Shown here piece by piece: positions 8,006 to 26,243 of a DNA stretch of 64,000 nt. The stretch comes from an uncultured Lachnospiraceae bacterium (GTDB lineage Bacteria; Bacillota; Clostridia; Lachnospirales; Lachnospiraceae): contig CALWES010000001.1 of the NCBI GenBank assembly GCA_944377405.1, positions 62,001 to 126,000 on the forward strand, read 5' to 3'. Position numbers and translations under genes: made by a program. Under the pieces are notes generated by a model. The model had not been told where the DNA came from. It saw nothing but the letters and a program-made list of their open reading frames with translations, and searched no databases. Within the stretch, counting starts at the first letter, position 1, and each line of letters starts with the position of its first letter.

Positions 8006-9058
8006 ATGCAGGCACAACAAAATGAAACCGGCAATCTTCAGGAACTGACCAGAAGGCAGCTTTTGGAGCTGGAAAGAGAGAAAAAAACAAAACTCCAGCT
8101 TTGGTTGGATCTGATCATCTGGCTTTTGCCTTTTGCAGCAGGTATCGTTGCTGTACTGGAATATACCCAGATCCCGGATAACAGCATGAACAGGAATCCG
8201 CAGGTATATCTGGTATTTTTGATCCTTCTGATCGTGGCATATGGCGTTTACAGCGTCGTTTCTCTGATCGCTCTGCGGGCAGGGAACAGGGATATCATTG
8301 ATAAGCAGCGCTATCGGGCGCCCCTTTTTTCTGCCCTGTTCCTGCTGCTGGCCTTCTATGATTATATGACTTTAAAAACGGGGATCCTGACCCAGCCCTT
8401 CGTTCCCTGTCTGAATTTCGTGATCAATGCCGCCTGGAGCGACAGAGCTATGATCATAGACTGTACGCTTCACACTCTGGTCCTGCTGTTTGAAGGATAT
8501 TTTATCGGTGTGGTTCTTGGACTGATCACAGGTGTTACCTGCGGTTATTCAAAACGCTGCCGTTATTGGGTAGACCCCGTGATCAAATTCCTCGGGCCGA
8601 TCCCCACTTCTACCTGGATCCCCATTATGATGGTCGTTGCATCCTCTCTGTATGGAGGAGCAGTATTTATCATCGCCCTTGGCTCCTGGTTTGCCGTAAC
8701 GGTGGCTTCCATGACGGGGATCTCAAATGTGGATCCGGAATACTTTGAGGCTGCAAAGACCCTCGGGGCTTCTGACCGGCAGCTTATTTTCCGGGTAGCC
8801 ATTCCTCATGCCATGCCTTCTATTTTCCAGGGCTGTACTCAGGCCATGAGCAGCTCCTGTACAGCCATTATGATCGCAGAAATGCTTGGTGTTAAATCAG
8901 GATTGGGCTGGTATATGAACTGGAGCAAATCCTGGGCGAGCTATGACAAAATGTTTGCAGCCCTGTTTGTGATCTGCTTTATTTTCACCATCGTAACCAA
9001 GACCCTGGAGGCTGTAAAACGCCATGTACTGCGCTGGCAGGTAGGAGTGGAAAAGTAA
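8006..9058 (+). CDS. ABC importer permease, NitT/TauT (SsuC-like) family
   Basis: The product is 350 aa. Six or more membrane segments are visible. The EAA loop that contacts the ATPase reads EAAKTLGASDRQLIFRVAIPHAMPSIFQG. The N-terminus has an additional charged stretch (residues 1-30) and two extra hydrophobic segments before the usual core, making it longer than the typical ~260 aa. AAGGAG lies upstream of the ATG. The upstream gap (7790-8005) is very AT-rich and probably holds promoters for both divergent units, but none is clear. The last base overlaps the ATPase start (TAATG). Confidence 0.88.
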   Translation: MQAQQNETGNLQELTRRQLLELEREKKTKLQLWLDLIIWLLPFAAGIVAVLEYTQIPDNSMNRNPQVYLVFLILLIVAYGVYSVVSLIALRAGNRDIIDKQRYRAPLFSALFLLLAFYDYMTLKTGILTQPFVPCLNFVINAAWSDRAMIIDCTLHTLVLLFEGYFIGVVLGLITGVTCGYSKRCRYWVDPVIKFLGPIPTSTWIPIMMVVASSLYGGAVFIIALGSWFAVTVASMTGISNVDPEYFEAAKTLGASDRQLIFRVAIPHAMPSIFQGCTQAMSSSCTAIMIAEMLGVKSGLGWYMNWSKSWASYDKMFAALFVICFIFTIVTKTLEAVKRHVLRWQVGVEK

Positions 9059-9840
9059 TGAGTAAGAATGTTGTTTTAAAAATGGATAATGTATCCAAGG
9101 GATTTGCAAAGATAGAAACGGATGAGGTCACCAATGCCCTGAATCAGGTATCCGCAACCATGAAGAGCGGAGAGTTCATCAGTCTGGTTGGTCCTTCCGG
9201 CTGCGGAAAATCAACGATCCTGCGGCTGATCGCGGGACTGATCCAGCCCACAACGGGAACCATCACCATAGATGATAAGCCGGTGGGAGAGCCGGGACCG
9301 GACAGAGGACTGATGTTCCAGAAGGCTACCCTGTTTCCCTGGCTTACGGTATGGGATAATGTTGCCTTTTCCTTACGGATGCAGGGAAAGCTGAAGGGCA
9401 ACGAGGATAAGGTGGAAAACATGATCAACGTCATCGGACTGAAGGACTTCAGGGATGACTATCCCGGACAGCTTTCAGGAGGTATGGCCCAGAGAGTTGC
9501 TCTGGTCCGCTGTTTGATCAATGAACCGGATATCCTGCTCCTGGACGAGCCTCTGGGGGCGCTGGATGCCTTCACCCGTATGAATATGCAGGATGAGATC
9601 CTGAAGATCTGGCAGAGAAGACAGCAGCTTGCGATCATGGTGACCCACGATGTGGATGAAGCAATCTACATGGGGACCAGGGTCCTGGTCATGGATGCCC
9701 ATCCGGGACGGGTGATCTCCGATATCACCATTGATCTGCCCATGCCAAGGGACAGATCCTCCAGAGAATTCGTGGCCTACAGGAATGATATCCTGAACAA
9801 GCTTCATTTTGGCGGGACCAGCAAGGCTGAGGAGGCCTGA
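9058..9840 (+). CDS. ABC importer ATPase, NitT/TauT (SsuB/TauB-like)
   Basis: The product is 260 aa: Walker A GPSGCGKS, Q-loop MFQKATLFPWLTVWDNV (typical of nitrate/sulfonate/taurine ATPases), signature LSGGMAQR, Walker B ILLLDEPLGALD and switch MVTHDVDEA. It energises the permease that precedes it. Substrate class for the family ranges over nitrate, sulfonates, taurine and pyrimidine precursors; this copy cannot be assigned. Confidence 0.92.
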   Translation: MSKNVVLKMDNVSKGFAKIETDEVTNALNQVSATMKSGEFISLVGPSGCGKSTILRLIAGLIQPTTGTITIDDKPVGEPGPDRGLMFQKATLFPWLTVWDNVAFSLRMQGKLKGNEDKVENMINVIGLKDFRDDYPGQLSGGMAQRVALVRCLINEPDILLLDEPLGALDAFTRMNMQDEILKIWQRRQQLAIMVTHDVDEAIYMGTRVLVMDAHPGRVISDITIDLPMPRDRSSREFVAYRNDILNKLHFGGTSKAEEA

Positions 9841-9940
9841 TGGACCTGGAAACAGAATGGATGTAATCACTGAGATCGGTTCAACTTGCGGCGGATCGTC
9901 CGCATTTGGATAAATTATTTTTCTTAGAGGAGATTGAGTT

Positions 9941-11164
9941 ATGAACAAAGCAAGAGCAAGCAAAAAGATCTGTGCTCTTACCATGGCAACTGCCATGGCA
10001 CTGACTGCCTGCGGCGGTGCATCTTCCGATGCATCTGCAGTAACAGAGGCGGATGGACAGCTGGCAGGAGATCTGAACAATGACGGACAGATCGAAATGG
10101 GGCAGGATGGCGTAGAAGTGGACGTTAATGTATCAGATGTCCACATGAATGCAGCAGATGCTTCTGCATCCGGCAACTGGGAAGCCCTGTTTACTCCCAT
10201 TGAGGTGGACGGCCGTGCCATCGACATGGCTGACATCGATCTGACTCCCACAGCGGAAGAGAAGGCGGCCATGGAGGCAGAGCCTGCTTACGGACAGCCC
10301 GTAAAGTACTATATGTCTGATGGATGTACTGCAGGCCCCACAGTGGCTGATGACCTTGGTTACTATGAGGAAGCAGGACTTACCGCAGAGGGATTCAAGG
10401 GAACCTCCTACACAGAGGCCCTTGGTACACAGCAGGCGACCGTAGCGGTTGGCCATATCGCAACCATGCTGGTACCCATCACAAACGGCGTTGACCTGAC
10501 CTTCGTAGGCGGTGCTCATATTGGATGCAAATCCCTGTATGTCCTTGCAGACAGCGAGTATGATACCACAGAGGATCTGAAGGGAACCAAGGTTTCCGTA
10601 CCGAACGGTATCGGTGCTTCCGACTATAACATCACCTGTCTGCTTCTTGATGCGGACGGAATCAATCCCCAGACAGATCTGGAGCTGACTCAGGTATCAT
10701 CTGATGCCTGCGTGGCAGCTATGGAGCGTGGAGAGATCTCTGCAGCGCTTCTGAGCGACACCTTCGCATATGCCATGATGAAGGACGGAAAGCTTAAGTG
10801 CATCCGTTCCCTGCTGGATGAGGACTTTGCAGATGAGAACTGCTGCGTGATCGCCATGAACCGTACCTTCGTTCAGGATAACCCGGTTCACGCAAAGAAG
10901 ATCGTTCAGGCAGTCCAGAAGGCACATTCCTGGATGCGTGAGAACCCGGAGGAAGCTACCGAGCTGCTTCTGGAGCGTGGATGGAACGGCGGAGATTATG
11001 AGATGAACGTTATGATCAACAACTCTCTGCAGTTTGGCGTAGATCAGGACTTCACCGGTAACTCCCTGAGGGATGTAACGGAGCGTTACGTTCGCCTTGG
11101 CCTGATCACCAATATGGACGATGTAGATGAGATCATGAGCCTTGCATGGACTCCGGTCCTCTAA
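9941..11164 (+). CDS. Substrate-binding lipoprotein of the NitT/TauT-type importer
   Basis: The product is 407 aa. A lipoprotein signal ends at ALTACGG. An acidic stretch (about 25-110, rich in Asp/Ala) includes a Ca-site-like DLNNDGQIE. The NMT1/SsuA-like binding fold follows, with KYYMSDGCTAGPTVADDLGYYEEAGL, AVGHIATMLVPITNGVDLTFVGG, LKGTKVSVPNG and SDACVAAMERGEISAALLSD. A small GCGGA/TCCGC hairpin (9891-9903) separates it from the ATPase gene and may protect or tune the downstream message. A strong terminator follows. The acidic insert is unusual for this family. Confidence 0.87.
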   Translation: MNKARASKKICALTMATAMALTACGGASSDASAVTEADGQLAGDLNNDGQIEMGQDGVEVDVNVSDVHMNAADASASGNWEALFTPIEVDGRAIDMADIDLTPTAEEKAAMEAEPAYGQPVKYYMSDGCTAGPTVADDLGYYEEAGLTAEGFKGTSYTEALGTQQATVAVGHIATMLVPITNGVDLTFVGGAHIGCKSLYVLADSEYDTTEDLKGTKVSVPNGIGASDYNITCLLLDADGINPQTDLELTQVSSDACVAAMERGEISAALLSDTFAYAMMKDGKLKCIRSLLDEDFADENCCVIAMNRTFVQDNPVHAKKIVQAVQKAHSWMRENPEEATELLLERGWNGGDYEMNVMINNSLQFGVDQDFTGNSLRDVTERYVRLGLITNMDDVDEIMSLAWTPVL

Positions 11165-11299: not shown

Positions 11300-11833
11300 T
11301 TAGATGAGAGAGCCTTTTGTGTTAGAAAAGTTTTTATTTATATATGCAGTACATAAGGACTCATCCACGGTAAATTTGCAGCAACGGTTGGAGAGAGTAC
11401 TCCATGCCTGTTCATCCACAATTAGACGGTAAAGCTTTTCCGCTTGCTTTAAGATCAGTTCTCTATGGGAATTACACCAGGTCAGCTGGTTTGATAAAAG
11501 GTTTTTATAAGCCCTGTCAGACGATGAGTCAGTTTCAGAAATGCGCATTTCGACTTTGGTTAAACTATAGGGATGCACAGGAATCATGTTGTTGAGATTT
11601 ATGGCACCCCATTCTCCACCTTGGATTTTTATAAAATCGATCTGATTTTTCATATGCAGATGTTTTGGCTTTGGAGATGTAAGAGGTGCATAATAATGGA
11701 AACCGTTGACAGAAAAGACAATCCCGATAAACGGGCGATTTTCCTTACGATCCATTGTATAGGGAACACGAGGATCGGATTTTCTCAAATAGTCGCAGTA
11801 GCAGGTATCAACCGTATAAAAAGAAAAATTCAT
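11300..11833 (-). CDS. toxN: Type III toxin-antitoxin endoribonuclease, ToxN/AbiQ family
   Basis: The product is 177 aa, close to ToxN (171) and AbiQ (182). The family pattern is clear: FYTVDTCYCDYL, VPY, RPFIGIVFSVNGFHYYAPLTSPKPKH (active-site LTSPK at 51-55), then GAINLNNMIPV at 76-86. The C-terminal half is helical and Cys-containing. The RNase cleaves mRNAs and its own repeat RNA, and is held inactive by the pseudoknot RNA made upstream. GAGGAGG lies upstream of the ATG. Directly upstream on the same strand are the terminator, the three repeats and a consensus promoter, exactly the type III layout. Such systems often abort phage infection. Confidence 0.93.
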   Translation of the reverse strand: MNFSFYTVDTCYCDYLRKSDPRVPYTMDRKENRPFIGIVFSVNGFHYYAPLTSPKPKHLHMKNQIDFIKIQGGEWGAINLNNMIPVHPYSLTKVEMRISETDSSSDRAYKNLLSNQLTWCNSHRELILKQAEKLYRLIVDEQAWSTLSNRCCKFTVDESLCTAYINKNFSNTKGSLI

Positions 11834-11855
11834 GTTGACCTCCTCTCAAGAATAT

Positions 11856-11883
11856 AAAAGGGCCGGATCGCAGGATCCAGCCC
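11856..11883 (-). terminator. Terminator between antitoxin RNA and toxin gene
   Basis: Two 10-base arms (11860-11869 and 11874-11883) pair around CTGC/GCAG, with one G-U pair, followed by TTTT on the minus strand. In type III loci such a terminator makes most transcripts stop after the antitoxin and lets a minority read into the toxin. Confidence 0.88.
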
Positions 11884-11884
11884 A

Positions 11885-11987
11885 GCTTTTTTAGCTCCCA
11901 CTCATGGTAGGGTACACCGCTTTTTTAGCTCCCACTTTGTGGTAGGGTACACCGCTTTTTTAGCTCCCACTCATGGTAGGGTACACC
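11885..11987 (-). repeat. Three tandem 34-35 nt antitoxin repeats
   Basis: Units lie at 11885-11918 (34), 11919-11953 (35) and 11954-11987 (34). The outer two are identical. The middle one differs only in the loop between CTACCA and AGTGGG (CAA instead of TG on the minus strand). There are no unique spacers, so this is not CRISPR. Confidence 0.95.
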
Positions 11988-12017
11988 GCTTTTTGAGTAT
12001 TTCTACTCGGTAAATTT

Positions 12018-12053: not shown

Positions 12054-13208
12054 TTAGCTCAGCATCTCAAGGAATGCACCGATTCTTGTGGCGATCTGGC
12101 CCTTGTCTGCCTGGGAGTAGTCGGTCTCGAGGCTCAGATAGGGTACGCCTTTTTGTTCTGTTACAAAGCGTTTAACATTATAGGACTCCACGTTGAAGGT
12201 GTGACAGGCCTGAAGGATCACTTCGATGACACCGTCTACCTGGAATTCATCCATCAGTGTTCCCATCATGTCAAAGCGGGGCTTATTGGGAGACATGACG
12301 GAACAGGTGATATCGATATACTTTTCGGCCAGAGCGGTATATACATCGCCGCTTTCTTCTACCTTCTGCATCTGGGTACGGATACCGCCGCAGGTATCGA
12401 TAAGAACGATATCTCCTCCGAGCTCCTCAATGGTTTTTAAGAGCTTGTCCCGGACACCGCCGTTGGGGCAGCCTGTTACCATAATGCGGGGCCGGTCAGA
12501 GAATTTACCCTTTCGCTCCGTCTCCCAATAATGCTGCACCTCTGCAGTCCGGGTATCGAAGGACTGGATCCGGTCATTGATATCAAAGGTAAAAGCAGAG
12601 GCATCCATTTTGGTGCCCATTTCATAACCGCTTAAGGCCGGCGGAACCAGCTTTCCAAGCTCAAGATAGGTCTGAAAGGCTACCCGTTCTTTGTTCTTCA
12701 GTTTGATAGCTTCTCTGATCTGGTCCTCTGTGATGGTAATATTGTAAAAATCTTCCAGTTTTTCTTTCAGACGTATGATCTCGGAACGCCAGGCAGCTAC
12801 AGCAGCTTCCCTTGGCTCCCGGCTGTTTGGAAGACTCATGACAAAGGTCTCCTTCAGTTCGTTCATGAGCTCGAACATTTTTTTCTTTCCGTCACAGGTC
12901 GTCTCACCGATGACAAAATCAGAAAAATAGAAGTAAGGACACTTCTCGGTCAGAGCGAATCCGTAGCTGGCTTTGATCAGAGGGCAAAGATTTCTGGGAA
13001 GCCGTGTTTCTCCTGCGGGGATCGGCTCTTCAGAGCTGGCACAAAGTCCGACAGGAATCGCATTTGCCGCATAGATCAGTTCGGTGGGAACATAGGAGCA
13101 GAAGACACCCACTACACGGCGGCCCTGATCCTTCAGTTCCTTCAATGCCAGAAAGCCCCTTTGTCTGGCTTCGTCATAAGTTTCAAAATTATCCGGAAGC
13201 TTTTGCAT
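12054..13208 (-). CDS. Double-cubane-cluster-type reductase / 2-hydroxyacyl-CoA dehydratase-like protein, copy 1
   Basis: The product is 384 aa and belongs to the HgdB/FldB/YjiM superfamily of ATP-activated iron-sulfur reductases. Conserved features are [16 protein letters not shown] (Cys37), [11 protein letters not shown] (Cys56), [16 protein letters not shown] (Cys75), EKCPYFY (Cys90) and [13 protein letters not shown] (Cys105). [26 protein letters not shown] and QACHTFN follow. This pattern fits the single-subunit double-cubane-cluster proteins rather than two-subunit dehydratases; no partner subunit is adjacent. It lies alone on the minus strand, divergent from the DUF3798 importer. The activator it needs is probably the one at 19.6-20.5 kb. 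The substrate is unknown. Confidence 0.85.
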
Positions 13209-13407
13209 AACTTATAATCTCCTCATTTTTTAAGCATTTTCGTTCAGCGTATGGATAAATATTGGCTTTGTCTATATTTATATAAAAATTTTATAAATGT
13301 ATTTTTATATATGGGAAAATGAAATAATGAATTGCGAACAAATCGTGTATTTTTTGTAAATTTTTTGCTATTCTGACATCAATACATCCTTGGAGGGTTC
13401 CATTTAT

Positions 13408-14943
13408 ATGATAGAAGTAAAGGGTCTGTCAAAAAAATTTGACAGCGGATATGTTCTGAAGGACATAGATCTTCAGATCGAAGACGGAGAAATATATGGA
13501 ATCATAGGTGCAAACGGATCAGGAAAAAGTACTTTTCTGAATATCCTGAACGGGAAAGACACGATCGTTAAAACCGGAGGCTATGAAGGAGACATTTTCA
13601 TTGATGGAGAAAAGGTCCGGATTCTGGACCACCAGCATTCCGTTTCCCACGGAATCTCCATGGTACACCAGGAACTGGCCCTTTTTCCAGGTATGCGTGC
13701 TGTGGATAACATCAAGATCAATCATGAAAATGTTAAATGGGAGCTGCCGGTCATTCCGGAGCTTTCCCGCCTGGACGAAAAAAAGAATCTGGAAGATGCA
13801 AAAACAGCTCTGGAGAGGATCGGAACGGAGCTGGATCCGGTAAGGAATATAGATAATCTGAGCCTGAATCAGAAGCAGTTTGTGGAGATCGCCAGAGAGC
13901 TGGATCATCAGAATATCCGGCTTCTGATGCTGGATGAACCAACCAGTTCTCTGAATATTACAGAAACAGAAAAGCTCCTTTCCTGTGTACAGGAGATCGC
14001 ATCAAGAGGGATCTCTGTCATTTTCGTTTCCCACAGACTGGAAGAGATTGAGAAGATCTGTCACAGAGTTTCCGTATTCAGAGACGGAAGACTGATCTCC
14101 ACATACAAAAAAGCGGATTTCGATCTGAACAGGTTTGCAGAAGATATGGTGGGACAGAAGATCGTAAAGGCAGCCAGAGAGAGGAGACAGCTATCGGAAG
14201 AAACGATACTGGAGTACAGGTGCAGGGATGACGATGGAAATACGCTGACTATAAAAAAAGGAGAGATCCTGGGAATCACAGGACTTGCGGGGCAAGGGCA
14301 GGAGCAGTTTTTGGCCGGTCTTTTCGGCCTTGCAAAAACGAACTATACCACAAGCTTCAAGGGGGAGATGCTGAAGGATGGAGATACCCATGGGCTGATC
14401 GGAAAAGGGATATATTATATTTCTGAAAACAGGGGAGTAGACAGCCTGCTTCTGGACAGCAGTATCTGGGAAAATATGATATTCGGGACAGAGGGAAAGC
14501 ATCAGGATTTTCTGTCCCTGTCCCGTATACCGGGACTGTCCTTTCTGAAAAGGGACAGGATCAGATCCTATACGGAACAGATGATAGAAAAACTGAACAT
14601 CGTCTGCGCGGACCCTCAGCAGCCGGTCAGGGAGCTCAGCGGTGGAAATCAACAGAAAGTATGTATCGGAAGAGCCCTTACCTTTGAGCCGGAGCTCCTG
14701 GGCATTGGAGAGCCCACAAGAGGGATCGATATTTATTCCAAGGAGCTTATTTTGAACTGGATCTTAAAGATGAATCAGGAGATGAATACAACAGTAGTGG
14801 TAGTATCGGGAGAACTGGAAGAGCTTATGCGTATCTGTGACCGGATTGCGGTCATGTATCAGGGGAAGATCCATCGTATCTTTAATACGGGAGTTTCTCC
14901 TGAGGAGCTTTCTCTTGCACTGTACGGAAAGGCTGCATCATGA
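13408..14943 (+). CDS. Sugar-type ABC importer ATPase with two ABC domains (RbsA/MglA-like)
   Basis: The product is 511 aa. Domain 1 has Walker A GANGSGKS, MVHQELALFPGMRAVDNI, an atypical signature LSLNQKQFVEIAREL and Walker B LLMLDEPTSSL. Domain 2 has a degenerate P-loop (GLAGQGQEQF, normal for this family), LSGGNQQKVCIGRAL and IGEPTRGIDI. The ATG at 13408 follows GGAGGG by ten bases; an upstream TTG at 13390 lies in the ribosome site itself. The stop overlaps the first permease (ATGA). Usual RbsA partners import sugars or nucleosides; here the binding protein is DUF3798, so the ligand may differ. Confidence 0.92.
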   Translation: MIEVKGLSKKFDSGYVLKDIDLQIEDGEIYGIIGANGSGKSTFLNILNGKDTIVKTGGYEGDIFIDGEKVRILDHQHSVSHGISMVHQELALFPGMRAVDNIKINHENVKWELPVIPELSRLDEKKNLEDAKTALERIGTELDPVRNIDNLSLNQKQFVEIARELDHQNIRLLMLDEPTSSLNITETEKLLSCVQEIASRGISVIFVSHRLEEIEKICHRVSVFRDGRLISTYKKADFDLNRFAEDMVGQKIVKAARERRQLSEETILEYRCRDDDGNTLTIKKGEILGITGLAGQGQEQFLAGLFGLAKTNYTTSFKGEMLKDGDTHGLIGKGIYYISENRGVDSLLLDSSIWENMIFGTEGKHQDFLSLSRIPGLSFLKRDRIRSYTEQMIEKLNIVCADPQQPVRELSGGNQQKVCIGRALTFEPELLGIGEPTRGIDIYSKELILNWILKMNQEMNTTVVVVSGELEELMRICDRIAVMYQGKIHRIFNTGVSPEELSLALYGKAAS

Positions 14944-15968
14944 AAAGACTTACCTTGAATCCGCCGCAGATCATTATGTTCTGCTTTATGCTGTTACTGC
15001 TGGCCATGGCCTTTTTTATCGACATGGACCTGGCGGGCATACTGAATGATTCTCTTATTAAATGGGCAATGAATGGGGTGATCGTTCTTTCATTGATCCC
15101 AATGATCAATGTGGGAGCGGGAAGGAATTTTGGTATCCCCATCGGCCTTTCTGCCGGCCTGTGCGGAATGATCTTTGCCCTGGATCGGAGGCTTACAAGC
15201 TGGATTGGCTTTTTCTCATCGATCCTTCTGGGAATGCTTGTAGCGGTGGTGTTCGGCTTTTTATATGCCAAGCTTCTGAACCGTCTTAAGCTGAATGAAG
15301 AGATTGTAGGGACCTTTGCCGGGTACTCCTTTATTCCCATTATGAATCTGTTTTACACCTTTGTTCCGGTGACGAACCGGCAGATGCTTTACCCCATCGG
15401 CGGACAGGGACTGCGGCCAAAGGTGAACCTGGATCAGTATTTCGGACAGATCCTGGATAATTTCCTGCAGCTTCGGATCGGGCCTGTGGTGATCCCTCTG
15501 GGATTGCTCTTATTTTTCTTCGGGATCGCCTGGCTTATCTGGTTATTTGGGAAAACCAGGACAGGACTCGTTTTTTCTGCCATTGCAGAGAACGAAAATT
15601 TTGTAAGACTTTCCGGGATCAACGTGAATTTTTACAGGACTCTTGGCATCATCCTTTCAACCGTGATCGCAGCCATAGGAGTAGTGGTGTACTCTCAGAG
15701 TTACGGGATCCTGCATCTTTATGACGGCCCCTTTATGATGAGCTTTCCTGCGGTATCAGCCATCGTGATAGGGGGAGCATCCCCCAAAAAAGCTACCGTG
15801 GCAAATGCCATGATCGGGACTTTTTTATATCAGACAACGTATTTGCTGTCCATACCGGTGGCCAATGCATTGCTTATCCCGGAAATGGCTGAGATCTTCA
15901 GAACGATCATCACCAGCGGTATTATTCTGTACGCCTTCATCTTTGAGAGGAAACCTAAAAGAGCATGA
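14940..15968 (+). CDS. ABC importer permease 1, BPD_transp_2 (RbsC-like) family
   Basis: The product is 342 aa with about eight to ten hydrophobic segments. It shows the family landmarks GRNFGIPIGLSAGLCG, LNEEIVGTFAGYSFIPIMN and a late VSAIVIGGASPKKATVANAMIG loop. It overlaps the ATPase by four bases and the second permease by four bases. The two permeases are distinct and probably form a heterodimeric channel. Confidence 0.88.
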   Translation: MKRLTLNPPQIIMFCFMLLLLAMAFFIDMDLAGILNDSLIKWAMNGVIVLSLIPMINVGAGRNFGIPIGLSAGLCGMIFALDRRLTSWIGFFSSILLGMLVAVVFGFLYAKLLNRLKLNEEIVGTFAGYSFIPIMNLFYTFVPVTNRQMLYPIGGQGLRPKVNLDQYFGQILDNFLQLRIGPVVIPLGLLLFFFGIAWLIWLFGKTRTGLVFSAIAENENFVRLSGINVNFYRTLGIILSTVIAAIGVVVYSQSYGILHLYDGPFMMSFPAVSAIVIGGASPKKATVANAMIGTFLYQTTYLLSIPVANALLIPEMAEIFRTIITSGIILYAFIFERKPKRA

Positions 15969-17011
15969 AACATATCAAGAACAATTTAGTGCCGGTATGT
16001 ATCTTCTTACTGGCAGTGATCTCATTTTATTTTGCGGATGTAAGCGGGAAATACCTGGCCAGTGAAATTTACACACGGTTTATCAGAAATGCGCTTTTCG
16101 TACTGGCTTTGATCCTGCCCATCAGCTGTGGAATGGGAATCAATTTTGCCATCGTAGTAGGCGCGATATCGGCGCAGATGGCCATCGTCTTTGCCATAGA
16201 CCTTATGCTGGAGGGACCTGCAGCTCTTTTGTTTACCATGTCTGTGAGCATTTTCCTGTCGATCGTTTTCGGGCTTATGGTGGCGGCTCTTCTGAATCGG
16301 GCAAAGGGGCGGGAGATGATCGTATCGATCATGATCGGCCAGCTAAGCTCCGTACTGTACCAGTTTGTCTTTATGGTTGCCTTTGGCCTGATCATAACGC
16401 CCCATAACGAGGCGATCCTGCTGGACCGGGGGATCGGCGTCAGGAGCATGATCGATGCAAAAAACATCAGCTCCGTGATCGACGGGATCTTTCCCTTTCA
16501 GCTGGATGGGAAGACCTATTCTCTGTTCCCTTTGATCATCATAGCGGTCTTTGCATTGCTGCTATTTTATATCCAGAGATCCAGGCTTGGAGTCCTGGCA
16601 AAGGCAGTTGGAAAAAACATCCATACAGCGGATGTCCTTGGACTGAAGACGAATAAGATCCGCAGTCTTTGTATCGTGATCTCCACCATATTTGCAGCCA
16701 TGAGTCAGATCTTATATGTGACAGATTTTGGGACAGTGAATGTATATACAGGCCATATCGGCATGGATACGAATGCGGCAGCTGCCATATTGGTGGGAGG
16801 AGCCACCTTAAAGGGGGCATCCATGAAAAACTGTTTTCTGGGGCTCATATTGTTCCATGCATTGTTTATTACATCTCCCATGGCGGGACAGAATCTGTTC
16901 CAGAATCCTTCGGTAGGAGAGTACTTCAGATCCTTCCTGGCATATGGCGTCATTATCATTGCTCTGATCATGAATCTGAAAACAGAAAAGAAAAAAGCAT
17001 CTTTTGCCTAA
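15965..17011 (+). CDS. ABC importer permease 2, BPD_transp_2 (RbsC-like) family
   Basis: The product is 348 aa, polytopic, with SCGMGINFAIVVGAISAQMA near the N-terminus and AAAILVGGATLKGASMKNCFLG near the C-terminus, matching the corresponding loops of permease 1. The start overlaps permease 1 (ATGA). A 57-base gap follows before the binding-protein gene, which has its own AAGGAG site, allowing higher expression of the binding protein. Confidence 0.88.
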   Translation: MKHIKNNLVPVCIFLLAVISFYFADVSGKYLASEIYTRFIRNALFVLALILPISCGMGINFAIVVGAISAQMAIVFAIDLMLEGPAALLFTMSVSIFLSIVFGLMVAALLNRAKGREMIVSIMIGQLSSVLYQFVFMVAFGLIITPHNEAILLDRGIGVRSMIDAKNISSVIDGIFPFQLDGKTYSLFPLIIIAVFALLLFYIQRSRLGVLAKAVGKNIHTADVLGLKTNKIRSLCIVISTIFAAMSQILYVTDFGTVNVYTGHIGMDTNAAAAILVGGATLKGASMKNCFLGLILFHALFITSPMAGQNLFQNPSVGEYFRSFLAYGVIIIALIMNLKTEKKKASFA

Positions 17012-17068
17012 ATATGGAAAGTTAGGGGAATTCCCATAACTATAAATCAATTTAAGGAGAGAGGAAGT

Positions 17069-18286
17069 ATGAAGAAAAAACTTTTATGTACGGCTTTGCT
17101 GCTGTCTGCCACAGTAATCGCAGCCTGCGGGGCAAATACGGCAGAGAGTGCAGCTCCGGAAACTACGACGGAAGCCAAGGCACAGGAGCAGTCAGCAGAG
17201 AAAACTGAGGATACTGCAGCTGCTGAAGAAAGCCAGGAGAGCGAGGAGACTGAACCTTATAAGATCGGTATCGTTACCCCGACGCTTACCGTCAGCGAGG
17301 ACGAATTCCGGGGAGCCGCAGAAATGGTAGAGAAATATCCGGATATCGTCGTTCACAAGACGCTTCCGGAAAACTTTGCCACAGACAAAGAGGGTTGTAT
17401 TTCCGTTGTAACCAGTCTGGCTGATGATCCGGAAATCAAGTATATCCTGTTTAATAACGGAATGGAGGGAATCGTGCCTGCGTTCCAGACAGTCCGGGAA
17501 AAGAGACCGGATATCGTGACCATGGTATCCTGTAATGACGATCCTGCTCTGTTAAATGAATATGTAGATATTTCCCTGACCACCGACTGGAACAGAAGAG
17601 GCGTTACCATTCCCACGAAGGCACACGAGATGGGAGCTGAGACCTTTGTGTTCTATTCCTTCCCAACACATATGGCAACAGAGAGCAAGTCTATCATGAG
17701 AGACAATATGAAGAAGACCTGCGAAGAACTGGGTATGACCTGGGTAGAGGAGAGCACACCGGATCCCCAGACCGGAAACGGAACTGCTGCCATGCTTCAG
17801 TATCTGAGGGAGGATATTCCGAGAAAGATCGAAGAGTACGGCCCCAATACGAACATTTTTGGAACCAACTGCCCGATGTATGACGTGATTCTGGATGAAG
17901 CTTTCAAGCTGAAGTTTATCGTGGCTGAGCAGTGCTGCCCGACGCCTACACAGGCATATCCCACAGTACTGAACCTTGAGATCACGGAAGATGATCTGGG
18001 AGATTATACCAAGATCAACAATATGATCTCTGAGAAGGCTGCAGAAGCAGATATGACAGGACGTCTTTCCGGATGGGCAATGCCTTCTTCCGTATACGTT
18101 CCGCAGCTGCAGGTTGAGCTTGCCAAGTATATGCACGATAATGATCTGACTCCGGATGACGTAAGGAGCGTAGAGTTCCTGAACAAGTTTACGGAAGAGC
18201 ATATGCCTACCGGTGCAGACTTCCAGACTGGCGGAGAAGGACTGGATAACTATTTCATGCTGATCCTCCAGGACGTATTCTATTAA
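17069..18286 (+). CDS. DUF3798-family substrate-binding lipoprotein
   Basis: The product is 405 aa. The lipoprotein signal ends at VIAACGAN, followed by an Ala/Glu/Thr-rich tether (25-60). The body starts KIGIVTPTLTVSEDEFRGA and includes LADDPEIKYILFNNGMEG, LTTDWNRRGVTIPTKAHEMGAETFVFYSFP and GTNCPMYDVILDEAF. It ends with EQCCPTPTQAYPTVL, the pattern I associate with DUF3798. That fold is related to periplasmic-binding-protein type 1. It completes the importer encoded by the three upstream genes. A terminator lies just downstream. The ligand is not known; the neighbouring reductases suggest the imported compound is reduced inside the cell (inference). Confidence 0.85.
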   Translation: MKKKLLCTALLLSATVIAACGANTAESAAPETTTEAKAQEQSAEKTEDTAAAEESQESEETEPYKIGIVTPTLTVSEDEFRGAAEMVEKYPDIVVHKTLPENFATDKEGCISVVTSLADDPEIKYILFNNGMEGIVPAFQTVREKRPDIVTMVSCNDDPALLNEYVDISLTTDWNRRGVTIPTKAHEMGAETFVFYSFPTHMATESKSIMRDNMKKTCEELGMTWVEESTPDPQTGNGTAAMLQYLREDIPRKIEEYGPNTNIFGTNCPMYDVILDEAFKLKFIVAEQCCPTPTQAYPTVLNLEITEDDLGDYTKINNMISEKAAEADMTGRLSGWAMPSSVYVPQLQVELAKYMHDNDLTPDDVRSVEFLNKFTEEHMPTGADFQTGGEGLDNYFMLILQDVFY

Positions 18287-18324
18287 ATCTATTCATTTAA
18301 AAATTAAAGAAAGATACCGATGAA

Positions 18325-18380
18325 AAGGACCCGTTGGGAGAGAAGAATGAATGTTCTTCCCCAACGGGTCCTCCTTTTTT
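18325..18380. terminator. Intrinsic terminator between convergent genes
   Basis: GGACCCGTTGGG pairs with CCCAACGGGTCC across a 21-base loop and is followed by T-rich sequence on the plus strand. It separates the DUF3798 gene from the convergent second reductase. Confidence 0.85.
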
Positions 18381-18422
18381 ATTTACGATAGGATATATGC
18401 AGAGATTTTACAGAATCCTGTT

Positions 18423-19574
18423 TTACCCCAGCATCTCCAGGAATGCACCAAGCCTTGTGGCGATCTGGCCCTTGTCAGCCTGGGAGTAGTCGGTCTCAAG
18501 GCCCAGATAGGGCAGGCCCTTTTCCTCGGTGACGTAGCGCTTTACATTGTAGGATTCAATATTAAAGGTATGGCAGGCCTGCAGGATTACCTCGATGACT
18601 CCGTCTACCCGGAACTCATCGATGAGACGGCCCATCTCTTCAAAGCGGGGCTGGTTGGGAGACATGACGGAGCAGGTCACATTGAGGTACTTCTTTGCCA
18701 GAGCATCGTAAACGTCTCCGGTCTCCTCCACCTTGTCCAGCTGGGTGCGGATACCGTTACAGGTATCGATCACGACGCAGTCGGCTCCCAGCTCCTCAAC
18801 GGCCTTTATGATCTTATCCCGCACACCCATATTGGGGCAGCCGGTCACCAGCAGTCTTGGGCGATCGGAGGTGGTACCCTTTATATGCTCCTCCCAGTAC
18901 TGCTTCAGTTCCTCCGTACGGGCCGCAAAGGTCTTACATCTTTCTTCGATATCGAAGCTGAAGCCAGCTGCATCCGTCCTTGAGCCCATTTCGTAGCCGC
19001 TGATGGCTGCGGGGTAGAGCTTTCCAAGGCTCAGATATTCTGTCATGACCTCACGCTCCTTGTTCTTCATGCGGATCGCTTCCCGGATCTTGTCCTCGGT
19101 GATGGTGATGCCGTAGAAGTCCTCCAGCTTTTCCTTGAAGCGGATGATCTCGCTGCGCCATTCCTTCAGAGCCTCCGGATAATCCCGGCTGTTGGGCAGC
19201 TTCAGTACATAGGTCTCCTTGATCTCGTTCAGGAGCTCGAACATTTTTTTCTTACCGTCGCAGGTGGTCTCACCTACGATCAGGTCGGAATAGTAGAAGT
19301 AGGGGCACTTGTCCGTCAGGGCAAAGCCGTAGCTGGCCTTGATCAGGGGACAGAGGTTTCTGGGCAGAACGGATTCTGCCTCCGGAATGGGTTCCTCGGA
19401 GCTTGCGCAGAGGCCGCAGGGAACTGCGTCGGCCGCGTAGATGATCTCACAGGGCACATAGGAACAGAAGGTGCCGATGACCCGTTTTCCGCTTTCCTTA
19501 AGCTCCTTTACCTTCAGGAAACCGGCCTTTCTGGTCTCATCGTAGGTTTCAAAATTACCGGGTAATTTCTGCAT
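18423..19574 (-). CDS. Double-cubane-cluster-type reductase / 2-hydroxyacyl-CoA dehydratase-like protein, copy 2
   Basis: The product is 383 aa and is very similar along its whole length to copy 1 at 12.05-13.2 kb. It shares [84 protein letters not shown] and the C-terminal [17 protein letters not shown]. Cys37, 56, 75, 90 and 105 are all kept; Cys42 and Cys53 are additional here. It lies 62 bases downstream of the activator gene on the same strand, so they form an operon. The two copies bracket the importer, suggesting duplication with divergence of substrate or regulation. Substrate unknown. Confidence 0.86.
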
Positions 19575-19636
19575 GTCTTTTTGTCTCCCTTCGCATATAT
19601 GATTGATCGTTATTTTTTCAAAGACATTTCTCGTGA

Positions 19637-20467
19637 TTATGAATCCGCCTGAAGCCTGCTGCGGCGTTCTCCAAGCTTTTTGGCTGTCATGGCAGCCCCC
19701 AGAGCACCGGCATAGCGGCCTTCAGAGGAATTTTCCACAGGCTGTCCGAGACGGTCGGAGAGCAGTGCAGCAAAGTAGCTGTTGCTGCTTAATCCACCGG
19801 TCAGAACCACCTTCTCCGCCAGTTTCTGACGCTTGCACATGGTGGCGACCTTATTTGCTACGGAGGCGATGACGCCGCTGGCAATGTCCTCACGGCTGCG
19901 GCCCTCGGCAATGTAGCTGATGACCTCCGATTCAGCAAAGACGGTACAGAGAGCGGAGATGGGGATAGGCTCTCCTGCCTTGGCCAGTGCGAACATATCG
20001 TCAATGTCTACGTTCAGGCGGTTTGCCATGACCTCGATGAACTTGCCTGTGCCGGCAGCGCATTTGTCATTCATCAGAAAGTCTGAGACAATGCCGTTTT
20101 CCACCAGAATGACCTTGGTGTCCTGTCCGCCTACATCAATGACGCTGACGGCCTTTTCCTTCTGGAAGAGGACCTGAGCGCCCTTGGCATGGCAGGTTAT
20201 CTCCGTGACCTGTTTATCGGAAAAATCCACGGCTTCCCGTCCGTAGCCTGTGGAGACTACCACGGAGTTCTTCCCGTGCTCCTCTGTATCCGTGACATAA
20301 ATTCCCTTGCCGGACAGAAGCTCGGCAATGTTTTTGGCAGCCATGCGGCTGCTCCATCCTGTGGGGATCACAAATTCCTCAAGGACCTCTCCGGTCTCGG
20401 AGAGGACGACGATCTTGGCGGCTGTTGAGCCGATATCAATTCCTGTATAGTACATAAGCTTCTCCAT
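19637..20467 (-). CDS. ATP-dependent activator of 2-hydroxyacyl-CoA dehydratase/double-cubane reductases (HgdC/YjiL type)
   Basis: The product is 276 aa, of the BadF/BadG/HgdC ASKHA-ATPase family: phosphate-1 motif [26 protein letters not shown], adenosine motif [13 protein letters not shown] and C-terminal [11 protein letters not shown]. The bridging [4Fe-4S] cluster ligands are the Cys in [12 protein letters not shown] and the Cys in [14 protein letters not shown]. The protein hydrolyses ATP to push an electron at very low potential into its partner reductase. It is co-transcribed with copy 2 and presumably also serves copy 1, which has no activator next to it. Start: MEKLMYY; MYYTG four codons later is an alternative. 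Confidence 0.92.
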
Positions 20468-20717: not shown

Positions 20718-21779
20718 TCAGTCCTCCCGCAGATGCACCGCATCCCGGGCCATCCGCCGGCGGTCATCTTCAATAGCGGCATAGTGTTTTTTCGTGGTAT
20801 TGACGTCTGCATGTCCAAGTACATCCGCCACCAGGTAGATATCCCCGGTCTCCCGGTAAAGGGCGGTGCCGTAGGTGCTCCGGAGCTTGTGAGGGGTAAT
20901 GTGCTTTAAGGGAGCGGCTGCCCGGGCATATTTTTTCACCAGGTTTTCCACGCTGCGGACACTTAAACGTTTTTTCTGCAGGGAGAGGAAGAGGGCATCC
21001 TCATGGCCGCTTTCCGGAATGGTGTGGTGCCGTTCCTCCAGATAGGGCAGGAGCGCTTCCTTTACATCGTCTCCGAAATAGACGGTGGCAGTCTTGCCGC
21101 CCTTCCTGCGGATCCGCACGCCGTTTTCCTCCAGATTCAGGTCGGAAAGATCGATTCCCACACATTCGGATACACGCATGCCGGTGCCCAGGAGGAGGGA
21201 GAGAAGAGCAGTATCCCGTATTCTGGTCTTTTCGTGATAATCCTGCTGACGCTTCGACAGATGAGCGCCGGTATCGGCCTCCTCCAGGAAACGGTTCATT
21301 TCTGAGCGGTTCAGCCGCACGATATCCTTCTGATGCAGCTTCGGCAGACGGACCCTGGCGGCGGGGTTCGTATCGATCATTTCGTTGTTATAGAAATAGT
21401 TGTAGAAGGACTTTAAGGATGCAATCTTGCGTTTGATCCCGTTTTCTCTGTTGGCGATCTCTTCACCTTCCTCACCGGGGCGGTATTTGAGATACTCCAT
21501 GTATTCCTCCAGATCCTGGACACCAACCCGGTCCAGGTCCCGGATCCGGAAATCGGAGATATCCTGATAGCGCTTATGGAAGGAGGGATTTTCCTGAAGC
21601 AGGAAATGAAAGAACACATTCAGATCATAGGCATAGGCAAGGCGGGTCCTGGACTGGGTCCTGGGTTCGATGCCCCGGAAAAACTGCTTACAGAATGGCG
21701 GAAGCTTCCAGATCAGTTCCCTGAGCCGTTCATGGTTGATCCGGTCCTGCTGATCGTGATAGGAGAGATTTTTAGGCAT
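20718..21779 (-). CDS. XerS-like tyrosine recombinase
   Basis: The product is 353 aa. The N-terminal SAM-like core-binding domain covers about 25-150, and the catalytic domain about 155-345. The probable catalytic set is Arg202 (TGMRVSEC), Lys226 (RRKGGKT), His297 and Arg300 (TPHKLRSTYG), His323 (LGHADVNTT) and Tyr333 (KKHYAAI). The insert DTGAHLSKRQQDYHEKTRIRD before the first catalytic Arg and the overall length recall single-recombinase XerS. The start at 21779 follows GGGAGG by nine bases. Codon use is GC-rich like the chromosome and unlike the adjoining prophage. The attachment repeat lies about 80 bases upstream, as xerS lies beside difSL in streptococci. Confidence 0.85.
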   Translation of the reverse strand: MPKNLSYHDQQDRINHERLRELIWKLPPFCKQFFRGIEPRTQSRTRLAYAYDLNVFFHFLLQENPSFHKRYQDISDFRIRDLDRVGVQDLEEYMEYLKYRPGEEGEEIANRENGIKRKIASLKSFYNYFYNNEMIDTNPAARVRLPKLHQKDIVRLNRSEMNRFLEEADTGAHLSKRQQDYHEKTRIRDTALLSLLLGTGMRVSECVGIDLSDLNLEENGVRIRRKGGKTATVYFGDDVKEALLPYLEERHHTIPESGHEDALFLSLQKKRLSVRSVENLVKKYARAAAPLKHITPHKLRSTYGTALYRETGDIYLVADVLGHADVNTTKKHYAAIEDDRRRMARDAVHLRED

Positions 21780-21852
21780 GGTTTTGTACCTCCCGGGCCC
21801 TGTAGGAAGGGCCTGATTGTGAAACTGCAGAGGGGCATTGTCCCATATCAAA

Positions 21853-21964
21853 CTATTCGCAAAACACAGGTTTAACGAAGAGTTAGTAGCGGAAATGCCT
21901 TATTTTGCAGGTTTTTTCTGGTTTTGGATCTATTCGCTTTTTCCAGTATGTTTTGCGAATAGAT
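21853..21964. repeat. Left attachment repeat (attL) of the inovirus prophage
   Basis: The stretch 21863-21964 is repeated directly at 28333-28433 with about eight differences. It contains two palindromic sites. The first is CTATTCG (21853-21859) facing CGAAGAG across AACACAGGTTTAACGAA. The second is ATCTATTCGC (21928-21937) and GCGAATAGAT (21955-21964), perfect 10-base arms around 17 bases. The 14-mer CTATTCGCAAAACA (21853-21866) recurs inverted at 21949-21962. Confidence 0.85.
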
Positions 21965-21976
21965 GAAGGGATTGCT

Positions 21977-23359
21977 ATGAAGAATTATACTCTTAAGTTA
22001 TTAGTTTGTGCAATGGGTATTTGTCTTTCTGTGCCTTTCTTTTCTTATGCTGAATTTGATCAGTATAACTATTATGATTCTCCGGTGTCTGAAATGGGGC
22101 CGACTATTCGTGACTTTAAGGGTAATTCATGGCGTGGAACTAATACTTTAGGTGACTGGAATCTGTATTTCAAAGTAAATCCGGATTGGGATCCTCTTGA
22201 TCCTGCTTCTCCTATGTATGTTTGGGGTCCGTCTCGCTTTGATATGGATTCCGTTAAATTTACCGGTACTAATTATATCGGTCTTATAAATGCTTTTTAT
22301 GGTGGTGGTTACTACAATATCGTTGATTCCACGTTTGAATCTGATGATGGTAAGTATGGTACTCAGATCTCTAATACTGACCTTAATGGAAATGCTATTA
22401 AGGACGGTATGTACGAGATAACTACTTCGTTGTTTCGGGATAGTACTTCTGTTGCTGTTAATCCGCAGTCTGATGGTGGTTCTCCCGGTGTTGAAATTTC
22501 CGGATCTACATTTCAGGATAATACGGATATTAATGTCGCCGATGGTGGCACTCTATCTATTAATGACAGTGTTATTAATTTGGCTAATGAGGATATTATG
22601 GATCGGTATTTAGGTACTTCTTCGCCTCTCTATTCTCTTATGCAATGGTTTTTTAATACTGTAGCTAGTAAGCTTTACTGGGGCATGTCTCAATTAAGGA
22701 TTATTCAAGATTTTTTAACTTCTTATCGTCTTGAGTATGAGCCTACTCTTGTTTCTTTAGAACCCGGTTATTCGGAATATTATCTTCCTAACGTCTTTGT
22801 TGTTGCTTATTATTATCAGGATGAACATTTAGTTTATACCGAAGAAACTTATTATTGCTCTTTTCCCGGTGCTATTCAAGCTTATTTTCGCGGTCTTGGA
22901 ATTACTCTTAATAGTATTGGCACAATGTTTTCTAACTGGTTTTATCCACTTGATCCTGATGCGCCTTACTGGCGTTATTGGAATACTGATACCGGTGAGC
23001 AGGAAGCTACGAATTTAGCAGGTGTTTTGTATAACATCACTTGGTATTTGGGTGAGATTTATAAAACTGATGACTGGGACGCTGGATCCGGATTTCAGGA
23101 GGCTACTGATAAAATGGATCAGTTGACTTCTGATATGAATGAGGCTGAGTCTGCTATAACTGATTCTGTATTAGGCAATGTTCAGGATTTTGTACCGGAT
23201 CCGGATGATGTAACTTCTTTAGCTGCTCTTGGATATATTGGGGATTACCTGCAGCGGATCTATGTTGCCCTGGGTGGTTTTGGTATTCCGGTTCTTTTGT
23301 CTTTGGTTCTTGCCGTATGTATGCAGTTGATCGGTTACTTTAAGTATAAGGGGGATTAA
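21977..23359 (+). CDS. Inovirus adsorption/minor coat protein (pIII-like)
   Basis: The product is 460 aa. A signal peptide (MKNYTLKLLVCAMGICLSVPFFSYA) starts it and a single C-terminal membrane anchor with a short basic tail (IPVLLSLVLAVCMQLIGYFKYKGD) ends it, the topology of pIII. Residues about 85-205 have repeated short strands (FTGTNYIGLINAF, YNIVDSTFES, MYEITTSLFRDST, VEISGSTFQDNTDINV, LSINDSVINL) that suggest a right-handed beta-helix receptor-binding module. A helical stalk region precedes the anchor. The ATG at 21977 follows AAGGG and begins the signal peptide. It is the first gene after the left repeat. Confidence 0.82.
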   Translation: MKNYTLKLLVCAMGICLSVPFFSYAEFDQYNYYDSPVSEMGPTIRDFKGNSWRGTNTLGDWNLYFKVNPDWDPLDPASPMYVWGPSRFDMDSVKFTGTNYIGLINAFYGGGYYNIVDSTFESDDGKYGTQISNTDLNGNAIKDGMYEITTSLFRDSTSVAVNPQSDGGSPGVEISGSTFQDNTDINVADGGTLSINDSVINLANEDIMDRYLGTSSPLYSLMQWFFNTVASKLYWGMSQLRIIQDFLTSYRLEYEPTLVSLEPGYSEYYLPNVFVVAYYYQDEHLVYTEETYYCSFPGAIQAYFRGLGITLNSIGTMFSNWFYPLDPDAPYWRYWNTDTGEQEATNLAGVLYNITWYLGEIYKTDDWDAGSGFQEATDKMDQLTSDMNEAESAITDSVLGNVQDFVPDPDDVTSLAALGYIGDYLQRIYVALGGFGIPVLLSLVLAVCMQLIGYFKYKGD

Positions 23360-23360
23360 T

Positions 23361-23582
23361 ATGATCGGTTTCTTGCAGTCTCTTGCGGATTTCTTCGGAT
23401 CTATTATAGATTTCGTTGTATCTATCTTTATGATGATTGTTAATCTTTTCTTACTGATCCCGAAGGGCCTTACTTATATTGTTACCTTGGTCGGTTATCT
23501 TCCGGATTTCATGGTTCCGGTCATTATAGTATCGGTTTCTGTGTCGGCTCTGCTGATGGTCGTGAATCATGGAGGTGACTGA
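23361..23582 (+). CDS. Small inovirus membrane protein (73 aa)
   Basis: Two hydrophobic segments (about 12-33 and 40-68) separated by a short PKG turn. It starts two bases after the adsorption gene. Its place after pIII fits pVI or another cap/minor coat protein, but the family is not recognised. The stop overlaps the next start as TGATG. Confidence 0.65.
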   Translation: MIGFLQSLADFFGSIIDFVVSIFMMIVNLFLLIPKGLTYIVTLVGYLPDFMVPVIIVSVSVSALLMVVNHGGD

Positions 23583-23743
23583 TGACAGCTTTTCTTGATT
23601 TTTTTATTACTGCTATTGGTTCATTGGTTTCCATGTTGTTTTCCTGGGATCTTTTTTCCGGTATTTCCGTTGGTGATTTTCTTGTTGCGATTATGGTTGT
23701 TGTAATATTGATCGGTGCTTTGAGGTTGCGTGTTCGTGATTAA
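23582..23743 (+). CDS. Small inovirus membrane protein (53 aa)
   Basis: A 53-residue frame begins with MTAFLDFFITAIGSLVSMLF and ends with an anchor VAIMVVVILIGAL followed by RLRVRD. The basic tail after a hydrophobic helix resembles filamentous-phage coat or cap proteins (pVII/pIX size class). GGAGG lies seven bases upstream, inside the preceding gene. It overlaps the next gene. Confidence 0.65.
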   Translation: MTAFLDFFITAIGSLVSMLFSWDLFSGISVGDFLVAIMVVVILIGALRLRVRD

Positions 23744-24509
23744 GTTTCGTTTTACAATTTGCCTGGCTTTATCCATACTCTCCTCTCCTGCTGTTGTATA
23801 TGCTGCTGAAGCTACACCTTCGGCAGCTGTCCAGCAGGAGGATCAGAGCGTGGATCAGAGCGTGGATCCGGTTCAGGATGTAAATCCTTATGATTCCGAA
23901 GCTCCTTCTTCCTGGGTTCCGGATGATGGTGAGGTTATTGGTGGCTCCGGTGCTGGCAAGCTTGATGATCCTTCGGATTTCTCTACTGGCTCGGTTCCGG
24001 TTGAGTATATTGATTATATTGAGAGGCATAGCGATGAACTGGAAGCATTTTCTGATCCGTCTGTTTTCGATACTTACCATAGGAATATTGTTGTTTATAC
24101 GGGTACTTTCGGAGATACGCAATATGATTTGATAGTCCCATTTTCTGCTTATTCCGTGTTGGATGTATATGATGGCCTGCTGCTTAATGTTGGACCCGAT
24201 ACCGTGGTTGGTCGTCTGGAGCCTGTAGGTGGTGTCATTGATCCTTCGGAATATGATTACATGACTTATACATTAAGCCCTGTATATGGCAGTTCTCAGA
24301 ACGTATATGAGTATGGCAGCCTTAATTACATGACTCATTATTATAAGGATTCCCGCTATGATCGGATCACATCGTCTCGTACTTATGGGGCGTTTGAGGT
24401 AGAGGATACTGTGCTGCATTATGGCGCAGCGGATCGTACTTATTACATTCTGATCTGTATCTTGGCTGCTTTGATAGGAGGTACTTGGATATGCAGACAA
24501 CCGCATTAA
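23736..24509 (+). CDS. Second secreted, C-terminally anchored inovirus surface protein (257 aa)
   Basis: A signal peptide (IKFRFTICLALSILSSPAVVYAA) is followed by a Ser/Asp/Pro-rich linker to about residue 75 containing the repeat QSVDQSVDP. An extracellular domain of about 150 residues rich in Tyr/Asp/Val comes next, then a C-terminal membrane segment (YYILICILAALIGGTWICRQPH). This again is pIII-like topology. GTG at 23736 is preferred over GTG at 23730 because GAGG is ten bases upstream of it. I do not recognise the domain. It could be a second tip protein or a host-surface or exclusion factor. Confidence 0.68.
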   Translation: MIKFRFTICLALSILSSPAVVYAAEATPSAAVQQEDQSVDQSVDPVQDVNPYDSEAPSSWVPDDGEVIGGSGAGKLDDPSDFSTGSVPVEYIDYIERHSDELEAFSDPSVFDTYHRNIVVYTGTFGDTQYDLIVPFSAYSVLDVYDGLLLNVGPDTVVGRLEPVGGVIDPSEYDYMTYTLSPVYGSSQNVYEYGSLNYMTHYYKDSRYDRITSSRTYGAFEVEDTVLHYGAADRTYYILICILAALIGGTWICRQPH

Positions 24510-24670
24510 TTTCTTTGTTGGATCTTTTTGAGGCTTTTCTTGGTCCTATTCCTCCGGAGGTTGTCCCGCTGGCTTATCTTCTATGCTTTTATCTTCTTCT
24601 TTTTGGTGTCCGGGAGATCTTTGATCTTTTCCGTTTTCTTCTGGGGGTGATCTTTAAGTGGAGGCATTAA
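24491..24670 (+). CDS. Small inovirus membrane protein (59 aa)
   Basis: One or two hydrophobic stretches with a PIPPEVVP turn and a basic end (FKWRH). AGGAGG lies nine bases upstream of the ATG at 24491. It overlaps both neighbours by a few bases. No family recognised. Confidence 0.65.
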   Translation: MQTTALISLLDLFEAFLGPIPPEVVPLAYLLCFYLLLFGVREIFDLFRFLLGVIFKWRH

Positions 24671-24816
24671 ATTCAACTTTGAACTGGGTTGTTGAGTCCC
24701 TTACTTCTCTTTTTTCTGCTTGTACTTCTGGGGATTTTGGCCTTTTGGGTTTTGCTCTTGTTGGTTTTCTTTTAATTCGGCAGTTTGCGAAAGCTTTTCA
24801 TATTATCAAAAAATAA
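24658..24816 (+). CDS. Small inovirus membrane protein (52 aa)
   Basis: A GTG-started frame with a GGGGGTGAT ribosome site eight bases upstream. A hydrophobic helix (FGLLGFALVGFLLI) is followed by a basic tail RQFAKAFHIIKK. Size and charge pattern resemble a coat or cap protein. It directly precedes the major coat gene. Confidence 0.6.
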   Translation: MEALNSTLNWVVESLTSLFSACTSGDFGLLGFALVGFLLIRQFAKAFHIIKK

Positions 24817-24826
24817 GGAGGTTTAT

Positions 24827-25141: not shown

Positions 25142-25162
25142 CTTGAATTTCGGGAGGGCAGT

Positions 25163-26230: not shown

Positions 26231-26243
26231 TGATTCTTCCCGA

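Follow-up and report, generated by a model that had tools for sequence, protein, structure and literature searches.

A DUF3798 importer flanked by twin double-cubane-type reductases: a possible uptake-and-reduction module in an uncultured Lachnospiraceae bacterium

Double-cubane cluster proteins (DCCPs) reduce acetylene, azide and hydrazine in vitro, and their natural function is stated to be unknown (PMC11971306). The DCCP/DCCP-R pair of Carboxydothermus hydrogenoformans (6ENO, 7YYL), whose DCCP is without a known physiological substrate, couples such an enzyme to an ASKHA-type ATP-dependent activase. Here we analyze a locus with the same pairing at positions 12054–20467 of a 64,000-nucleotide stretch (hereinafter the window) from an uncultured Lachnospiraceae bacterium, an anaerobe of the gut type (contig CALWES010000001.1 of assembly GCA_944377405.1, positions 62,001 to 126,000), in which two reductases bracket an ABC importer with a DUF3798 substrate-binding protein. 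An original prediction, made from the sequence alone, had singled out this layout and read it as uptake followed by reduction of the same compound, with DUF3798 as the clue to specificity. We find that the association of reductase and importer is better supported than could have been known from the window, and only for one subclade of DUF3798. New to this analysis is a second importer resembling the selenocysteine-assisted organometallic (SAO) transporter, the closest relatives found for it being situated directly upstream of a reductase–activase pair in another family.

Twin double-cubane reductases and their activase

The layout as originally described, namely two closely similar HgdB/YjiM-type reductases around a complete DUF3798 importer with one HgdC-type activator, is confirmed, with all genes intact and at the coordinates given. 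Reductase A (12054–13208, 384 aa) and reductase B (18423–19574, 383 aa), both on the minus strand and of the short type, score 499.6 and 500.7 bits, respectively, with the double-cubane model NF040772, as against its curated equivalog cut-off of 350 (NCBIfam), and 373.6 and 375.6 bits with HGD-D in a Pfam scan. The nearest solved structures to reductase B are the DCCP entries 7yyl/6eno (E ~1e-74 to 4e-74), BzdN and 2-hydroxyacyl-CoA dehydratase being far weaker matches (E 1e-18 to 1e-20). An alignment of short and long reductases shows eight invariant cysteines. Of these, exactly six (Cys37, 75, 105, 272, 301 and 334 in reductase B numbering) have a cysteine counterpart in BzdN, an enzyme that binds its [8Fe-9S] cluster through six cysteines (PMC11971306). 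A single subunit therefore appears to hold the full six-cysteine ligand set for an [8Fe-9S] cluster, the cluster itself being predicted. While the window enzymes share with DCCP the family, this cysteine set and the activase pairing, they differ from it in being present as two paralogues rather than one, in having a shorter N terminus and in their placement around an importer. Reductases A and B are 73% identical with one 1-residue gap in a pairwise alignment, and a tree of 59 reductases places them as sisters with a support of 100/100 in a clade that we term group A. Hence, they stem from a fairly recent duplication in the lineage.

The HgdC/DCCP-R-type ATP-dependent activase (19637–20467, minus strand) is encoded 62 bases upstream of reductase B. 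It is a BcrAD_BadFG protein that scores 244.7 bits with TIGR00241 (NCBIfam cut-off 125.4), and its nearest structure is 1hux, with which both of its cluster-binding cysteine motifs align. That the reductases share one activator is true of the window locus, where this is the single activase gene. The same genome (G000 in our sample) codes for a third reductase at C1:208786, which belongs to the long-type clade rather than to that of the window twins and adjoins a selenocysteine (Sec)-lyase-like gene; no activase was found in the 13 kb surrounding it.

A reductase-linked subclade of DUF3798

The importer is encoded on the plus strand by an ATPase of the sugar/CUT2 type with two fused ABC domains (13408–14943; ABC_tran in two stretches), permeases 1 and 2 (14940–15968 and 15965–17011; BPD_transp_2, 69.9 and 64.9 bits) and the DUF3798 substrate-binding lipoprotein (17069–18286), which scores 369.1 bits with PF12683 against a Pfam gathering score of 24.6. 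The best NCBIfam models for the ATPase are those of xylose/arabinose/GguA ATPases, all scoring under their cut-offs. In its fused double ATPase, two BPD_transp_2 permeases and type I binding protein, the system has the layout of CUT2-type importers. The structural model of the binding protein (pLDDT 88) displays the type I binding-protein fold and matches its nearest solved structure, the Clostridioides difficile DUF3798 protein 3QI7, with a Z of 46.7; structure searches matched, apart from 3QI7, no more than type I binding proteins of a general kind. In the literature searchable without a subscription, DUF3798 is named only in protein tables, with no link to these reductases.

The survey of DUF3798–reductase co-occurrence that the original prediction had proposed came close to overturning the idea for the family as a whole. 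DUF3798 is present in 68 genomes of a phylum-wide sample of 398, and a reductase over the NF040772 cut-off in only 11 of those 68; thus, DUF3798 as a whole family is no reductase marker. The picture differs for one subclade, which a profile (A1) built from nine DUF3798 proteins close to that of the window separates sharply: its members score 621–742 bits, save for a fragment at a contig end with 463 bits, as compared to at most 387 for other DUF3798 proteins among the matches listed. The window protein belongs to this >620-bit subclade. Here the link is real. A reductase scoring above the cut-off is present in 19 of the 21 subclade genomes; in 10 of the 18 that are testable (G000, G711, G526, G821, G858, G854, G015, G330, G979 and G307, with G776 and G991 left out for contig edges) the reductase adjoins the importer, across six families and in several gene orders. 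In G307, the distance to DUF3798 is about 4 kb and the reductase is found where the importer operon ends. By contrast, 19 DUF3798 genomes outside the subclade have both genes, and these are adjacent in none of them (Fisher p 1.3e-4 with kinship ignored); the chance of a given reductase lying within 7 kb of a given gene is about 0.6%.

The reductase and DUF3798 genes touch in G858, G854, G330, G711 and Tissierella, being a few bases apart on one strand in G858 and overlapping on one strand in G330. The linked reductases come from distant clades of the tree: those of the window and Tissierella-like genomes constitute group A, those of G711, G307, G330 and G979 group B, and those of G015 fall in neither. 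Given these distant clades and the differing gene orders, the pairing of importer and reductase appears to have arisen more than once. Within 199 genomes of one order, a group-A reductase (called at ≥680 bits with profile A2) is found in 16, the DUF3798 subclade in 8 and both in 7, such that the reductase is present in 7 of the 8 subclade genomes versus 9 of the 191 others (p 4e-8). The dependency is one-sided, with the importer nearly always accompanied by a reductase and not the reverse. Uptake followed by reduction of one compound is accordingly a good inference for the subclade and does not extend to DUF3798 at large.

A triad of cysteines (Cys268, Cys289 and Cys290 in the window protein) is shared, fully or nearly so, by 82 of the 83 distinct DUF3798 rows whose alignment covers the three positions; a single complete row is without it, and one row is cut short. 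As judged from secondary structure, these cysteines would sit in loops after strands of the second lobe, where type I binding proteins usually have their ligand cleft. 3QI7, otherwise alike in fold, is in the minority without the triad and has Ser-Asn aligned at Cys289-Cys290. Being nearly family-wide, the triad was rejected as a mark of the reductase-linked subclade. Ergothioneine was likewise considered and rejected as a DUF3798 ligand: a histidine-ammonia-lyase-like gene occurs near seven canonical DUF3798 loci in two families (L039, L041, L043, L052, L061, L074 and L075), none of them in the subclade, and the one such gene tested is a true HutH by nearest structure (468 bits, as compared to 255 bits for ergothionase). 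The canonical importers L039, L040 and L041 also adjoin a heterodimeric HGD-D dehydratase-like pair with an activase, a further link of DUF3798 to this superfamily, in this case to its dehydratase type.

A second importer and the genomic context of the reductases

SAO operons are linked to organometal chemistry, and a role as metal(loid) ligands has been discussed for their selenoproteins (PMC13188914). A second importer of the window (8006–11164, plus strand) resembles the SAO transporter SaoA/SaoP/SaoX and comprises a permease (8006–9058), an ATPase (9058–9840) and an NMT1-type binding lipoprotein (9941–11164). The best curated models for its ATPase and permease are SaoA (267.5 bits) and SaoP (106.7 bits), while SaoX (70.7 bits) comes second to SsuA_fam for the binding protein. 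It differs from the SAO transporter in that these scores all fall below the respective cut-offs of 360, 295 and 300, in that the binding-protein frame 9941–11164 has no in-frame TGA as a Sec codon and has cysteine instead, and in being paired with reductases. Cys129, 196, 301 and 302, inclusive of a Cys-Cys pair, are invariant in the SAO-like binding proteins (model pLDDT 73).

Two genomes of another family, G950 and G942, have an operon of the form binding protein–binding protein–permease–ATPase–reductase–activase. Among the loci compared, the window importer is the closest relative of theirs, with 317 and 310 bits for the permease (next best 80) and 202–211 bits for the binding protein (next best 60). 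Since the closest relatives of the second importer thus lie directly upstream of a reductase and activase, the window probably holds two reductase-linked importers, and that at 8006–11164 is a candidate second partner of the reductases.

Other short-type reductases are found near selenium or methyltransferase genes. Some lie, together with an activase, within clusters of selD, yedF, yqeB, yqeC, xdhC and related selenium/molybdenum-hydroxylase genes (L197–L201), and others adjoin Sec-lyase-like genes or UroD/MtaA methyltransferases and corrinoid proteins, the gene names in these neighborhoods having been read by eye from the sequences rather than taken from model hits. Dicubane proteins are reported from mlp clusters, for which a part in methyl-selenide recycling has been proposed (PMC10418091). 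The reductase–DUF3798 loci of G015 and G307 resemble the type I mlp clusters in also possessing UroD/MtaA-like methyltransferases and corrinoid proteins, whereas no methyltransferase or corrinoid gene was recognized in the 8–21 kb region of the window. In G015 (L036:2718-5978), nitrogenase-like NifH/NifD/NifK-type genes, read by eye, are found beside the reductases, the DUF3798 importer, the corrinoid protein and the methyltransferases. In a set of 59 genomes, selD is present in 32 of 32 DUF3798 genomes with a reductase over the cut-off versus 18 of 27 without one, counts that are confounded by kinship; as a specific marker of the subclade it was rejected, since 30 of the 38 genomes outside the subclade have it as well, next to 20 of the 21 within. 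The selD of the window genome (G000 C2:206001-206924) contains an in-frame TGA, and SelD itself is probably a selenoprotein there.

In the window, the importer genes are on the plus strand and both reductases and the activase on the minus strand. A divergent intergenic region of 199 bases (13209–13407), delimited by gene order and sequence, separates reductase A from the importer operon, and the DUF3798 gene and the activase–reductase B pair converge on a stem-loop with A/T flanks at about 18325–18380 (extent read by eye). The stem-loop is a likely bidirectional terminator, and a consensus terminator scan did not report it. Given the opposed strands, the divergent gap and the convergent stem-loop, the locus forms at least three transcription units rather than one operon. 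The ATPase most likely starts at the ATG at 13408, which lies behind a GGAGG, rather than at the TTG at 13390. The two importers are separated by a type III toxin–antitoxin (ToxIN) locus (11300–11994, minus strand), with ToxN (PF13958, 166 bits) preceded by a toxI-like 34-base repeat in 3.2 copies and by a stem-loop terminator. On the other side, at 20718–27205, a XerS-like tyrosine recombinase lies beside a filamentous-phage-like block coding for a small exported coat-like protein, a P-loop ATPase and a replication protein with a REP_ORF2-G2P domain (53 bits).

Uptake and reduction weighed against other explanations

We posit that the locus is an uptake-and-reduction module, a reading to which we give roughly even prospects. 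Going by the families involved, the DUF3798 lipoprotein would capture a small external compound that the ABC importer then takes in, and the SAO-like importer (8006–11164) probably has its own binding protein capture the compound too. The activase would send single electrons, each driven by ATP, from its own [4Fe-4S] cluster to the double-cubane [8Fe-9S] cluster of reductase A or B, where they would be gathered for the reduction of the imported compound or a product thereof. This electron transfer is known for DCCP/DCCP-R and is extended to the window on the basis of family membership and the conserved cluster cysteines; the flow of substrate from importer to reductase is one that we infer from their linkage. 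Reductases A and B could each form homodimers, and the second copy may raise the dose, follow the divergent promoter together with the importer or widen the range of substrates. The ligand might be thiophilic, either an organoselenium or organosulphur compound or else one that is metal(loid)-organic; this class is tentatively favored because of the DUF3798 triad, the invariant cysteines of the SAO-like binding proteins and the selenium and methyltransferase contexts of short reductases, none of these indications being strong.

Several observations weigh against the proposed module. The reductase lies apart from the importer in 8 of the 18 testable subclade genomes (G845, G777, G787, G134, G975, G969, G960 and G990), and G259, also of the subclade, has no reductase over the cut-off. 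The closest relative of the window importer, that of Pseudoflavonifractor gallinarum (DUF3798 81% identical, same gene order), has no reductase in the approximately 6 kb upstream and 10 kb downstream of it that the 21 kb covered include. Importer and reductases are not co-transcribed in the window, it is mainly other short-type reductases that have the selenium and methyltransferase contexts, and the cysteine triad, being family-wide and not specific to the subclade, could serve a structural disulphide. Further, 9 of the 16 group-A genomes in the one order are without the subclade importer, sometimes having other importers. With these genomes and a second candidate importer in the window, the claim that DUF3798 is the specificity clue was too strong; it is better seen as one of two binding proteins worth testing.

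In one alternative, the reductases have a general selenium or one-carbon task, for instance in freeing or recycling methylated selenium or sulphur by reduction, with the importers as replaceable feeders of a local selenium or methyl donor; DUF3798 would then say little about the direct substrate of the reductases. The selD distribution given above, the reductases adjoining the selD–xdhC clusters (L197–L201), glycine-reductase-like genes (L144) or corrinoid methyltransferase clusters (L186, L202, L203 and L207), the reported occurrence of such proteins in mlp clusters (PMC10418091) and the group A reductases without DUF3798 are all in keeping with such a task. However, the window twins fall outside the long-type clade, whose member in this genome is the one next to the Sec-lyase-like gene, no selenium gene was recognized within the island, and kinship clouds the selD counts. 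We regard this explanation as possible without being probable. We consider it unlikely that the subclade importer and the reductases share no more than a neighborhood, as separate accessory modules co-travelling in islands of strict anaerobes. In the window's family, the 15 other genomes sampled yielded no DUF3798 and, hence, the importer was probably acquired; the ToxIN locus and the XerS-like recombinase on either side, and the P. gallinarum importer without an adjacent reductase, also fit with co-travel. Nevertheless, importer and reductase lie side by side in six families, in varying gene orders and with reductases of distant clades, often closely spaced on the same strand, and non-subclade DUF3798 shows no such case.

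An alternative of a different kind is that reductases A and B together make up a single heterodimer, of the 2-hydroxyacyl-CoA dehydratase or benzoyl-CoA-reductase-like kind, as might be suspected from the presence of two HGD-D proteins and an activase together, which is the composition of dehydratase operons, and from the heterodimer next to the canonical importers L039–L041. This is highly improbable: both proteins are far above the double-cubane cut-off and fall far short of those of the dehydratase and benzoyl-CoA reductase subunits (at most 106.4 versus 700 for HadC and 86.4 versus 453.8 for BzdN), and they are 73% identical mutual sisters that keep all the cluster cysteines and are not adjacent. 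By these scores, they are not subunits of either enzyme.

In a more specific form of the uptake-and-reduction module, the reductase pair would receive a metal(loid)-organic or organoselenium compound from both importers, which are unrelated to each other and have cysteines in their binding proteins. This form is doubtful; if true, it would assign DCCP-type enzymes a first physiological role, the nitrogenase-like ATP-driven reduction of an organometal or organochalcogen taken up from outside. More generally, where a binding protein is genetically linked to the enzyme, the search for the substrate, otherwise open-ended, becomes a ligand-binding assay on a soluble protein. The DUF3798 proteins worth using for this are narrowed to the subclade scoring above 620 bits with profile A1, and the SAO-like importer contributes another, independent binding protein. 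Should one compound bind to both, it would be a strong candidate for the substrate of the reductases.

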